From Thermotoga maritima MSB8 (GTDB taxonomy: Bacteria; Thermotogota; Thermotogae; Thermotogales; Thermotogaceae), in NCBI RefSeq assembly GCF_000008545.1, contig NC_000853.1, positions 448,465-512,464 on the forward strand: a DNA stretch of 64,000 nt. The letters are read 5' to 3'. Every line of letters starts with the position of its first letter. Within the stretch, counting starts at the first letter, position 1. Shown here in pieces: positions 16,582-20,703 of the stretch. The translations under genes and the position numbers were made by a program. Under the pieces are notes generated by a model, which was given only the letters and a program-made list of their open reading frames with translations, was not told the DNA's origin and did no database searches.

Positions 16582-18008
16582 TAGCGGCCATAGACATTGG
16601 AACAGAGAGCGCTCGTCTTATGTTCAAAAGTAACGGTGAGTGGAAAGTTCTGAAAAAGTCATATAGAATCTTCTTTCCATCACCCGAGGCGGCAGAACAG
16701 GACCCGAATGAGATCTTTTCCGCTGTTTTCGATCTTTTAAAGCAAGTACCCAACGAGGACGAGGTTCTCTACGTTGGTATGAGCTCTGTGTTCCACAGCA
16801 TCATCGGTCTTGATGAAAATCTCAATCCGGTTACTCCCCTCCTCAACTGGGCAGATAGAAGATCCTTTCGGGAAAAGGAAGAACTGGAGAAGAAGTACGG
16901 TGTCAGGTTCTTTTACGAAAAAACTGCGTGCCCGCTCCATCCGATGTACTGGCCTTCGAAGATCCTGTGGATGAAGAAAAACTCGAATGCGAAAAAGTTC
17001 TGTTCGATAAAAGCTTACATCGTCAACAAGATGACTAGAGAATTTGTGGAAGAGCTTTCTCTCGCATCTGGAACCGGTATGATGAACATACATTCCCTCG
17101 AATGGGACGGGGAAATCCTGGAGATCACGGGAGTGAGGAAAGAAGATCTTCCTGAGATCAAATCACCTTACACACAGTTGAGGGTGAAGGATGAAATAGC
17201 GAAAGAGCTCGGCTTCAAGAAAGTCTACCTGGTCCTCGGCGGTGGAGACGGAGTGATGACGAACGTAGGAGTGAACGTGATGGATCCTGATTCAGCCACC
17301 GTGACGATCGGAACGAGCGGCGCGTTTCGTGTTGTCATGGACAGACCGGTGATCGATCGGGAGGGGATTTCCACCTGGTGCTATCTGATCGATGAGGAGA
17401 ACTACGTTCTCGGCGGGGCGATAAACAACGGTGGTATCGTTCTCATGTGGCTGAGGGACATCATGAAATTCAAAGACTACAACGATATCATAGAAGAAGC
17501 AAAGGAGTCTCCAGCTGGTGCGAACGGACTGGTATTCCTGCCGTTTCTCAACGGGGAAAGGGCACCGCACTGGAGAGAAAGATACAGGGGCGTTCTGGTA
17601 GGGCTCACTTCCTCTCACAGAAGGAGTGACATTGCAAGAGCGGCACTCGAGGGAATCTGCTTCAGGATAAAGGACATACACAACGCGGTTAAAAGAGTGG
17701 GAAGTGTTGATCCCAATCGAATCGTTGCGACGGGAGGTTTCACCAGCTCTCCGTACTGGGTCCAGCTCTTATCGGACGTTCTTGGAAAGGATATAATCGT
17801 CACAAACGTGGAGAATCCTTCCGCTTTTGGAGCCTACGTAATGGCTTTGAAATCGCTGGGAGAAGATGTGGAAGGCTTTATCGAAAAAGAGGTTCGGGTA
17901 GAGCGGGTGTTTCACCCTGATTCTGAAAGAAACGCGGTGTACGAGAGACTGTACAATGATTATAAGTTCCTGTACGAAAAACTCGTGGACTATTATTACA
18001 AGGAGTAG
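16578..18008 (+). CDS. FGGY-family carbohydrate kinase (probable gluconate kinase)
   Basis: This 476-residue two-domain kinase of the actin-like ATPase fold has the first phosphate loop AAIDIGTESARLMF (residues 3-16), the NWADRRS substrate segment, and the second-domain motifs IGTSGAFR and ATGGFTSSPYWVQLLSDVL. FGGY kinases act on pentuloses, glycerol or gluconate. The presence of gnd in the same operon points to gluconate, giving 6-phosphogluconate; I recall gluconate kinase activity for the T. maritima protein. It starts by ATGA overlap with the LarA-like gene and is the last gene of the operon. Its 3' end overlaps the convergent aspA gene by 13 bases. Confidence 0.88.
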   Translation: MIAAIDIGTESARLMFKSNGEWKVLKKSYRIFFPSPEAAEQDPNEIFSAVFDLLKQVPNEDEVLYVGMSSVFHSIIGLDENLNPVTPLLNWADRRSFREKEELEKKYGVRFFYEKTACPLHPMYWPSKILWMKKNSNAKKFCSIKAYIVNKMTREFVEELSLASGTGMMNIHSLEWDGEILEITGVRKEDLPEIKSPYTQLRVKDEIAKELGFKKVYLVLGGGDGVMTNVGVNVMDPDSATVTIGTSGAFRVVMDRPVIDREGISTWCYLIDEENYVLGGAINNGGIVLMWLRDIMKFKDYNDIIEEAKESPAGANGLVFLPFLNGERAPHWRERYRGVLVGLTSSHRRSDIARAALEGICFRIKDIHNAVKRVGSVDPNRIVATGGFTSSPYWVQLLSDVLGKDIIVTNVENPSAFGAYVMALKSLGEDVEGFIEKEVRVERVFHPDSERNAVYERLYNDYKFLYEKLVDYYYKE

Positions 18009-19372
18009 CCAAGCCCCGTCATCTTTTTGAGGTTGAGAACCTTCAGTATCTCTTCGACAGGAATGTTTTTCTCCTGGGATAGAATTTCAACGGCTTTCTT
18101 TATGTCCCAATTCGCTTTTTTTATTGCTTCAGAGACCGCTTCGTATCCAAACAACTTTATCAAAGGTGTGAGGTTCGAAACAGACCTTCGAAGGTGTTCC
18201 TCACACCGCTCGTTGTTCGCTTTTATTTTTGAGATGTAGCTGGCGAGTGATCTACAGGCGTTTGTGAGGAGTGTGAGAGATTTCAGTGTGAGGTGAACTA
18301 TCAGAGGAGCGAACTGGTTGAGTTCTAAATTCCCAAGCGCGCAGGCATGGTTCAGGATCATGTCGTGACCGAAAACCATATGACAGATTTGCATTACGTA
18401 CTCGGAAACAACCGGGTTTATTTTTCCTGGCATGATGGAGCTTCCCGCCTGCACAGCTGGAAGAATCAGTTCCCCGATCACGGTGTTTGGTCCGCTTCCC
18501 AGCAGTCTGATGTCGTTTGAAATCTTGTAGAGGTTCACAGCAAGGGATTTCAAAAGACCATGAACCTCGGCAAAAACGTCCCAGTTCTGCGTGGCGTCTA
18601 TGAGGTTTTCTGCTTTAGCAATCTTCACTTTCGTCACTTCTCTCACCTTTTCCACGATCTTGAGGATGTAGTCTTTCGGCGCCCCAACTCCCGTTCCGAT
18701 GGCCGTTCCCCCGATGTTTACACTTCTTATTCTTTCTTCGACTTTGTAGAGCCTCCATCTGTCTCTCGCGAGGGCATCCGCGAAGGCACCGAATTCCTGC
18801 CCTAACATGATGGGCGGTCCATCCATGAGCTGTGTTCTTCCCGGTTTTCTGATGGAGTAGAACTCCTTCTCTTTCTCCTGAATCTTCTCCTGAAGGTTTA
18901 TCACTTCATCTATGAGTCTTCTGAGTTTCACGATGGTGGCGATTTTCGCACTCGTTGGGAAGGTATCGTTTGTGGACTGGTGCAGGTTCACGTGGTCTAT
19001 GGGATCGACCAGGTATTCTCCTTTCTTTCCACCGAGTATTTCCGTAGCCCTGTTTGCGATCACTTCGTTTACGTTCATGTTTATGGAAGTTCCAGCCCCA
19101 CCAGAGAGTGGATCCACAACCACGTGTTTTTTCAGGTCTTCCCATTCGTCACAGGCTTTCACAATGGCGTTTCCTGTTCGTTCGTCCAGATAACCAAGCT
19201 CTGTGTTCAAAAGGGCGCAGGCTTTTTTCACCATGAAATAGGCCCAGATGAAAGTTTCGTCGAGCTTTTCACCCGTGGATGGGAAGTTCATGAGGGCTCT
19301 CTTTGTGTGTATTCCATAGTAGACTTCGCCTTCTATCTCCAGTTTCCCGAGGTAATCGCGTTCCTTTCTCAC
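17996..19372 (-). CDS. aspA: Aspartate ammonia-lyase (fumarase/aspartase superfamily)
   Basis: This 458-residue enzyme converts aspartate to fumarate and ammonia. It has the three conserved regions of the superfamily: [35 protein letters not shown], and the signature loop [12 protein letters not shown] with the catalytic serine. The aspartase call over fumarase rests on overall pattern and on the hydF neighbourhood. The start is GTG 19372, which overlaps the hydF stop (GTGA) and gives the expected N-terminus [14 protein letters not shown]; longer in-frame extensions run through hydF and are not real. Co-expression with hydF suggests a supporting role in [FeFe]-hydrogenase cofactor assembly, for example as a nitrogen source. 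Such pairing recurs in other hydrogen producers, by recall. The 3' end overlaps the kinase gene. Confidence 0.9.
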
Positions 19373-20583
19373 ACCTTCACTTCCTCTCTGAAGGGACGTA
19401 TCGCCCGGTCGAGTACTCCATGGAGGTAAGAGATCGTCACACCGTAGTTCGTCATGGGAATACCGAGTCTCTTTGCCATTCTCACCCTTCTCATCATAGC
19501 TGCCCTGTTCAGAACACATCCTCCGCAGTGAATGATGAGTTTGGCACCCTCGATCTCTTCGAGATCCGGGAAATCCTTTCCCGCTATGACTTTGAAGTTC
19601 AACTGGGCTCCCGTGTGGTTCACAAGCCACCTTGGAATCTTTACCCTTCCGATGTCTTCGGTGAGAGGTCTGTGGGTGCAGCCTTCCATGATGACAACAG
19701 TGTCTCCGTCTTCCAGCTCTTCTATCTTTCTCACGCTTTCCACAAAGTAAGCCAGATCTCCTCGATATCGTGACTCCACAATGGAAAAGGTGGTGAGCTC
19801 CACGTCTTCCGGGACATCAGACGCTACTTTCATTACCACCTGAGAGTCTGTGATGACGAGTTTTGGTTTCATCCCTATGTTTTCCATCACGTACCTGAGC
19901 TCTCTTTCCTTCACCACGAGGGCGATGGCTTCTCTGTCGAGGGCTTCCCTGATCGCATGGACCTGAGGCATGATGAGCCTTCCCTTTGGAGCACCGAGAT
20001 CTATGGGAACCACGAGGATCACAAGATCGCCGCCATCTATCAGATCACCGAGGTAAGGAATCTCTTCATCACCCGGAAGAATTTCGGAGATGGTTTTTCC
20101 GATATCGTCGAATCCCTTTTTCTGCAAAGCCGAAACAAGGAGTACTTTCGCTTCGTAACGGCTTTCGTAGAGTCCCTTCAGCTCTTCGGCCTTTTCTCCA
20201 AGAACGTCGATTTTGTTTACGACAACTACGAAGGGAATTTCCATCTCTTTGAAAAGATTGACAACGTCGTCTTCGTACGGTGTCGGTTCGCTGTCTGTTA
20301 CGAGTATTCCACAGTCCGCTCTGTAGAATACTCTCCTTGCTTTCTCCACTCTGAGTCTTCCAAGTTCTCCCACATCATCGAGCCCAGGAGTGTCGACCAG
20401 CGTTACAGGGCCTACGGGGTAAAGCTCCATGGATTTGTAAACGGGATCTGTCGTGGTGCCTGCGTATTCACTCACGATGGACACGTTTTGTCCAACGAGT
20501 GCGTTCATGAAGGATGATTTTCCAACGTTTCTCCTTCCAGCGACAACGATGTATCTCCTGAAACCAGCGTCCGGCAATCTCAC
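19369..20583 (-). CDS. hydF: [FeFe]-hydrogenase maturation GTPase HydF
   Basis: This 404-residue protein is the scaffold on which the [2Fe] subcluster is assembled with HydE and HydG products before transfer to HydA. The GTPase domain shows G1 GRRNVGKS (16-23), G3 DTPGLDD and G4 NKID. A dimerisation domain follows, then the FeS domain with C302-T-H304 and H352-C353-G-G-C356, which are the cluster ligands known in the Thermotoga protein. The start is GTG 20583 with AGGGTGAT five bases upstream; longer reading frames cross the leader terminator. It overlaps aspA and is preceded by a structured leader (20584-20696). hydE and hydG are not in the window. Confidence 0.95.
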
Positions 20584-20696
20584 GATATCACCCTCTATAA
20601 AGAAAAATCCCCTTCGCACGACCGAAGGGGTGAGTTCCCCCTCGGTGTCGGGTGCCCTCCACCTCAGGTGGAACGGTCTTTTTCATGTTAATTTTA
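20584..20696 (-). ncRNA. Structured hydF leader, candidate riboswitch or transcription attenuator
   Basis: After the purE stop codon and a TAAAAT box (20691-20696, minus) comes a GC-rich leader. In order along the RNA: a GACCG strand (20678-20674); a hairpin UCCACC-UGA-GGUGGA (20672-20658); a hairpin ACCGA/GGGG pairing with CCCC/UCGGU (20646-20621); and an intrinsic terminator (20630-20609). The last two share bases 20621-20630 and cannot form together, which is the layout of an on/off transcription switch. A GUUCC/GGAAC pairing (about 20676-20672 with 20637-20633) could close an aptamer. I could not match it to a known riboswitch class. The ligand is unknown; iron-sulfur, SAM, purine or glycine-related signals would all fit the neighbours. 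Confidence 0.65.
20602..20630 (-). terminator. Leader terminator before hydF
   Basis: CCCCTTCG-gtcgtg-CGAAGGGG forms an 8-bp perfect stem on the minus strand (20630-20609), followed by ATTTTTC. It lies about 20 bases before the hydF start codon and after no completed gene other than purE, so it can act both to end purE transcripts and to gate hydF. Confidence 0.85.
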
Positions 20697-20703
20697 TCAC
20701 AAT

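Follow-up and report, generated by a model that had tools for sequence, protein, structure and literature searches.

A conserved stem-loop RNA upstream of [FeFe]-hydrogenase maturation genes in Thermotogota, with TM1266 as its candidate protein ligand

The leader between purE and hydF

The hydF gene of Thermotoga maritima MSB8, which encodes the [FeFe]-hydrogenase maturation GTPase, is preceded by a leader that was originally predicted to be an unclassified riboswitch or attenuator. This leader lies within a 64,000-nucleotide stretch of the genome (contig NC_000853.1, positions 448,465 to 512,464; hereafter the window), and every part of it is located on the minus strand, which is the coding strand of both purE and hydF. 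From 5' to 3', these parts are a -10-like hexamer, a conserved stem-loop, a spacer, an intrinsic terminator, a U-tract and a ribosome-binding site (Table 1). The original interval, 20584-20696, captured this anatomy correctly, although its end falls inside the -10-like hexamer (20696-20691). Folding of the same interval as minus-strand RNA yields -42.5 kcal/mol with a z-score of -3.3 (1 of 200 shuffles was equally good), compared with a z-score of -1.2 for the plus strand.

The predicted canonical terminator was recovered by a terminator scan at 20630-20609 plus the U-tract. The antiterminator forms when ACCGAGGGGG (20646-20637) pairs with the complementary CCCCTTCGGT (20630-20621), and it is incompatible with both the stem-loop and the terminator. 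The ten bases that the antiterminator and the terminator had been proposed to share correspond to the overlap at 20621-20630. The stem-loop and the terminator, by comparison, are compatible, and the structure of lowest predicted energy at 37 °C contains both. The proposed GUUCC/GGAAC closing pairing also stands (20674-20670 with 20638-20634), and the equivalent outer pairs covary in relatives. A 'small perfect hairpin' in the original prediction, CCACCTGAGGTGG, exists as an alternative pairing of the 5' strand in the antiterminated state, but does not belong to the conserved fold. This hairpin is explained by the RAGG motif, which occurs twice in Thermotogota and so offers the 5' strand two alternative pairing partners.

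When the ligand-free full leader is modeled with ViennaRNA, the stem-loop and the terminator are predicted to form at 37 and 60 °C, whereas the antiterminated form is predicted at 80 °C, subject to the extrapolation of energies that this temperature demands. Thermotoga grows near 80 °C. On that model, the preference for the antiterminated form implies that a ligand would be needed to shift the leader to its OFF state.

A hexamer resembling a -10 element is found no more than 45 nucleotides upstream in 58 of 71 related leaders, compared with 38 expected. A consensus scan, which also requires a -35 element, detected no promoter at the hydF leader.

Table 1. Features of the hydF leader and adjacent genes (window coordinates)
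Feature	Coordinates	Strand	Basis or remark
hydF leader	20584-20703	minus	between purE and hydF
purE stop	20704	minus	
-10-like hexamer TAAAAT with TG upstream (TGTGATAAAAT, 20691-20701)	20691-20696	minus	just after purE; sequence
Conserved stem-loop, putative aptamer or binding site (GUUCCACCUGAGGUGGAGGGCACCCGACACCGAGGGGGAAC)	20634-20674	minus	covariation in 69 relatives; models R1 and R2
Symmetric core, 5' half, GA-GGUG-GA (RA-N4-RA)	20658-20665	minus	
Symmetric core, 3' half, GA-CACC-GA (RA-N4-RA)	20642-20649	minus	
Antiterminator: stem-loop 3' strand (20637-20646) with terminator 5' arm (20621-20630)	20621-20646	minus	complementarity kept in relatives
Intrinsic terminator hairpin (CCCCUUCGGUCGUGCGAAGGGG)	20609-20630	minus	terminator scan, found with U-tract
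U-tract of terminator	20599-20608	minus	sequence
hydF ribosome-binding region (AGAGGGTGATATC)	20584-20596	minus	sequence
hydF, [FeFe]-hydrogenase maturation GTPase, GTG start at 20583	19369-20583	minus	TIGR03918, 5.5e-161
Aspartate ammonia-lyase gene after hydF, probably co-transcribed	17996-19372	minus	NF008909 above cut-off

A covarying RNA family and its expression platforms

Orthologs of hydF were sought in 41 genomes, and the same leader was found in all Thermotoga species sampled and in members of other genera and families (L008, L009, L010 and L023). A search for the core pattern gave about one match per genome in 32 of 103 Thermotogota and nearly none in a reversed control. The exact pattern occurs in 11 stretches of genome contigs, nine of which belong to Thermotogota, and two of which were rejected as chance matches (L150 lies inside an open reading frame (ORF) and L144 is without the outer stem). 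Covariance models built from 30 (R1) and 69 (R2) sequences have matches in 64 of the 103 Thermotogota genomes, with one or two copies in each. Thermotoga genomes, including that of T. maritima MSB8, carry two copies, one before hydF and the other before TM1266-hydG-hydE.

The gene downstream of the RNA is in most cases TM1266, and otherwise hydF, hydG, hydE or the gene for [FeFe]-hydrogenase group A (hydA). Apart from two copies described below (L168 and L217), the targets are H-cluster genes or TM1266, the gene at their head, and the RNA is therefore assigned to [FeFe]-hydrogenase maturation rather than to purines. The proposal of an attenuator controlling hydF is supported by strong covariation and by the conserved alternative pairing, but the element is not specific to hydF, since it also heads TM1266-hydG-hydE and other H-cluster genes, with copies before hydE, hydG and hydA. 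Nothing points to a ligand related to SAM, glycine, purines or iron, as had been suggested, and the purE neighborhood is incidental.

The element consists of P2, an R-A/R-A internal loop, a 4-bp P3, a second R-A/R-A loop, P4 and a free apical loop. Each strand of the core reads RA-N4-RA, which creates a roughly two-fold symmetric site. All four sides of the loops are nearly always GA or AA, whereas the apical loop and the helix sequences are unconstrained; for example, P3 occurs as GGUG/CACC, GAUG/CAUC, GGUC/GACC and GGCU/GGCC. An alignment of 69 relatives (A4) contains 111 compensatory cells compared with 37 in shuffles, and none of 500 shuffles reaches the observed value. Changes on both sides are seen in 8 of 13 pairs, and the true pairing register outscores all slid registers. 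With members from inside and outside the phylum pooled, every P3 pair is represented by at least three standard pair types, with the pooled pairing percentage biased towards structure by the choice of outside members for their pairing. Judged by this comparative evidence, the stem-loop RNA family is real.

The RNA also appears to be unclassified, as predicted. Neither the hydF leader nor seven diverse members match any Rfam 15 family at gathering or relaxed thresholds (the best match of the hydF leader scores 18.4 bits against a cut-off of 49.5), and Rfam 15 applied to the whole window returns only tRNAs.

A predicted terminator lies within 190 nucleotides of the stem-loop in 64 of 71 leaders, several of these being doubtful; on visual inspection, the hairpin picked by the terminator finder is incorrect or doubtful in L010, L102, L188 and L200. 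The alternative pairing between the 3' strand and the terminator 5' arm is kept in 53 of the 64 terminator-bearing leaders, where at most 1 of 100 shuffled arms pairs as well. The leader thus combines an intrinsic terminator upstream of a gene with a conserved, mutually exclusive antiterminator, the features of a transcription attenuator, and this predicted mechanism is well supported at the sequence level. In family f8, the 3' strand instead has AGGAGG at its end, with the start codon of hydF or TM1266 a few bases further on, and therefore constitutes a Shine-Dalgarno platform. The element thus has two output platforms, termination and Shine-Dalgarno occlusion, and the folded hairpin should mean OFF in both.

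Four f8 leaders located before hydG (L154, L160, L164 and L166) have a further arrangement, in which a short upstream ORF is driven by the stem-loop with its Shine-Dalgarno sequence, and a hairpin resembling a terminator lies between this ORF and hydG. A combined translation and termination design is possible for these leaders.

Candidate ligands of the stem-loop

The TM1266 family (TIGR03959, PF21699, PDB 2nzc) is a known one with a solved structure, a 'putative iron-only hydrogenase system regulator' whose gene lies beside hydEFG, and to our knowledge its target and mode of action are undescribed. On its own, TM1266 folds like the C-terminal regulatory domain of NikR, although its match to Pfam NikR_C is weak. 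Its AlphaFold2 model (pLDDT 96.5) retrieves 2nzc as the best Foldseek match and NikR as the next (TM-score 0.8). The protein has a NikR_C/ACT fold but is without a DNA-binding domain, such that another target would be needed, for which a symmetric RNA site would be a plausible candidate.

A second, weaker TIGR03959-like protein is encoded in T. maritima (L220; G000:C1:194028-194246) and has homologs in most Thermotogota, with scores of about 30 bits that fall below the cut-off. It is possibly a paralog of the TM1266 regulator. There is no RNA match at this locus in the T. maritima genome.

TM1266 is present above the family cut-off in 67 of 103 Thermotogota. Among the Thermotogota that encode HydG, the RNA is found in 64 of 65 with TM1266 and in none of the five without it. 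These five belong to one genus (g34), of which another member, G092, retains both the RNA and TM1266. This co-occurrence is only suggestive, because the RNA and the TM1266 gene are usually neighbors and may be lost together. In four genomes (G059, G060, G061 and G101), the RNA precedes hydG while TM1266 resides elsewhere without the RNA, and here action in trans would be needed. Where the RNA stands alone on hydF, hydG, hydE or hydA, it is nonetheless found only in genomes that carry TM1266.

Outside the phylum, the element also precedes TM1266, but with different helix sequences. Whole-genome searches with R2 yield matches directly upstream of TM1266 in G138, G147, G220, G227 and G379; among genomes with HydG, R2 matches 5 of 23 that carry TM1266 compared with none of 48 that do not. 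Weaker matches in G189, G291 and G308 were discarded by inspection as chance, as they lie inside large ORFs. A strict structural descriptor that considers only loops and pairing, and is blind to helix sequence, was satisfied by 4 of 34 TM1266 leaders (G360, G264, G117 and G227) versus none of 580 background windows; one copy reads CCC-GA-CCGC-AA-GG...CC-AA-GCGG-AA-GGG. R2 also matches 18 of 30 TM1266 leaders in the class of G379 (E <= 0.05), compared with none of 40 control hydG leaders from genomes without TM1266, even at E <= 5. The element is thus located upstream of TM1266's own gene in Thermotogota and several other clades, as in an autoregulatory leader.

We hypothesize that the RNA is a cis-acting attenuator in which the folded stem-loop, most likely held by a dimer of the TM1266 family, turns maturation genes off, and we lean towards this explanation with some reserve. 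RNA polymerase would start just upstream and make the stem-loop first. If the stem-loop were not stabilized, its 3' strand, ACCGAGGGG, would pair with the 5' arm of the terminator, and hydF would be read. TM1266, perhaps itself controlled by a ligand, would clamp the symmetric RA-N4-RA site and make the 3' strand unavailable, such that the terminator forms and transcription ends before hydF. In family f8, where the Shine-Dalgarno sequence is on the 3' strand, the same clamp would block translation. Such a circuit would exert negative feedback on H-cluster assembly. The broader proposal is more tentative and could about equally prove right or wrong. It holds that TM1266 represents a new class of RNA-binding regulator, a NikR_C/ACT sensor whose DNA-binding domain was either lost or never present, and that it reads the RA-N4-RA hairpin and exerts negative feedback on cofactor assembly across several clades.

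Several observations weigh against a role for TM1266 at this RNA. TM1266 usually adjoins the RNA, and the joint loss in genus g34 could reflect one deletion. Within Thermotogota, G044 carries TM1266 without an R2 match, and most TM1266-bearing genomes outside the phylum likewise have none. Members in the class of G379 have a degenerate second internal loop. The hydG leaders that served as the control may be operon-internal rather than at operon starts. RNA-seq of T. neapolitana under CO2 (PMC7039931) shows that TM1266, hydE and hydG rise 6.0-, 7.5- and 6.4-fold, respectively, which indicates that the TM1266 operon is regulated. However, hydF rises only 1.28-fold and does not follow this operon under that condition, even though both transcripts bear the RNA in Thermotoga relatives, which weakens a simple model with a single signal.

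The main rival is a small-molecule riboswitch, in which the stem-loop would bind, as an aptamer, a metabolite from H-cluster assembly or from hydrogen or redox metabolism, and TM1266 would merely be a common operon member. Such a device would be expected to have a conserved structured domain with covariation, to serve two platforms and to regulate a whole pathway, all of which are seen here, and it would accommodate the copies that stand alone on hydF, hydG, hydE and hydA. However, the core amounts to a regular helix interrupted by two symmetric R-A loops, in which no multi-helix junction or pseudoknot was seen, its apical loop and helices are free, and there is no credible match in HydG-bearing genomes without TM1266. 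We consider this explanation rather unlikely. The symmetric two-loop site and the tight link to TM1266 favor a protein ligand, leaving the small-molecule ligand of the original prediction unsupported. We thus favor a protein-bound autoregulatory attenuator, and infer the identity of its ligand.

Binding by another protein, such as a general RNA-binding or ribosomal protein, is improbable; symmetric tandem-purine loops would suit protein dimers generally, but the targets are nearly all H-cluster genes plus TM1266, and the distribution tracks TM1266. An ordinary terminator of a purK-purE operon, with hydF transcribed from elsewhere and unregulated, would agree with the location just after purE. 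This explanation is already refuted for the family and has hardly any chance of being correct, given that the terminator is only 25 nucleotides from the hydF start, which leaves little room for a downstream promoter, that the same leader precedes hydF and TM1266 without purE in other genera, and that the upstream stem-loop and the alternative pairing are conserved. Ribosome-mediated attenuation through a leader peptide, suggested by an open frame that starts with the ATG at 20686, spans the leader and stops at a TGA immediately upstream of hydF, is equally far-fetched and was rejected because the frame is not kept (it is shifted in L005 and continues into hydF in L004), while substitutions track RNA pairing.

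Relation to known systems and additional loci

The proposed attenuator resembles several established systems in part. RAT hairpins, the targets of BglG/LicT/SacY antiterminators, are about 30 nucleotides in length, have two internal loops, are bound by a symmetric protein dimer and are coupled to an intrinsic terminator. A two-loop hairpin coupled to a terminator is common to both systems, and a dimer is our proposal for the present RNA. However, RAT overlaps and excludes its terminator, and its protein prevents termination (ON), whereas here the stem-loop and the terminator can coexist, the antiterminator is built from the 3' strand of the stem-loop, and binding should be OFF. The symmetric R-A/R-A loops and the NikR_C-like TM1266 also differ from the RAT system. 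PyrR and TRAP leaders are autoregulatory, in that protein binding at an anti-antiterminator element causes termination and the regulator controls its own pathway. The same logic is proposed here, but the RNA motif and the protein fold differ. Purine and other OFF riboswitches share the aptamer 3' strand with the antiterminator and use both transcription and translation platforms, as does this element, which differs in its absence from Rfam, its minimal regular stem-loop and its likely protein ligand. Kink-turns also place tandem G-A pairs beside a helix, but have a 3-nucleotide bulge, whereas the loops here are symmetric (2x2) with no such bulge.

The original prediction knew of no described RNA control over [FeFe]-hydrogenase maturation, and a search of the open literature likewise uncovered no previous account of this RNA (subscription papers lay outside the search). 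The same search retrieved neither a paper describing a riboswitch for hydF or hydG nor one addressing the function of TM1266, and no description of how H-cluster assembly (HydE, HydF, HydG) is regulated. The 26- and 50-genome noncoding RNA surveys showed no hydrogenase motif for the terms searched. TM1266 has been a solved yet unexplained 'putative regulator' since 2006, for which this RNA is a candidate target, and a conserved RNA that marks its regulon makes the function of TM1266 directly testable. Should TM1266 prove to bind RNA, an ACT/NikR_C type would join the RNA-binding regulators. Another potential use of the element is as a part for controlling hydrogen production in thermophiles.

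The aspartate ammonia-lyase gene overlaps the end of hydF, and several relatives have a lyase-like gene after hydF. One paper (PMC11736057) is reported to link ammonia-lyases to the dithiomethylamine ligand of the H-cluster.

One copy of the RNA precedes genes other than those for maturation (L168:535-567; G057:C78:31927-31973). It is located after the 3' end of hydA and before an NMT1_2-type ABC transporter operon, whose transporter is possibly linked to hydrogenase cofactor supply. Another copy (L217, G051:C38; R2 E-value 1.5e-6 in the genome search) has no clear target gene and is followed by an HNH-like ORF by the contig end; a mobile element may have inserted between this RNA and its gene. 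Finally, G026 carries an 84%-identical hydF with a Thermotoga-type leader (G026:C1:605925-607127) and a second, split hydF-like gene at 913069-914027, which looks like a gain of hydF and its leader by transfer followed by decay of the original gene.
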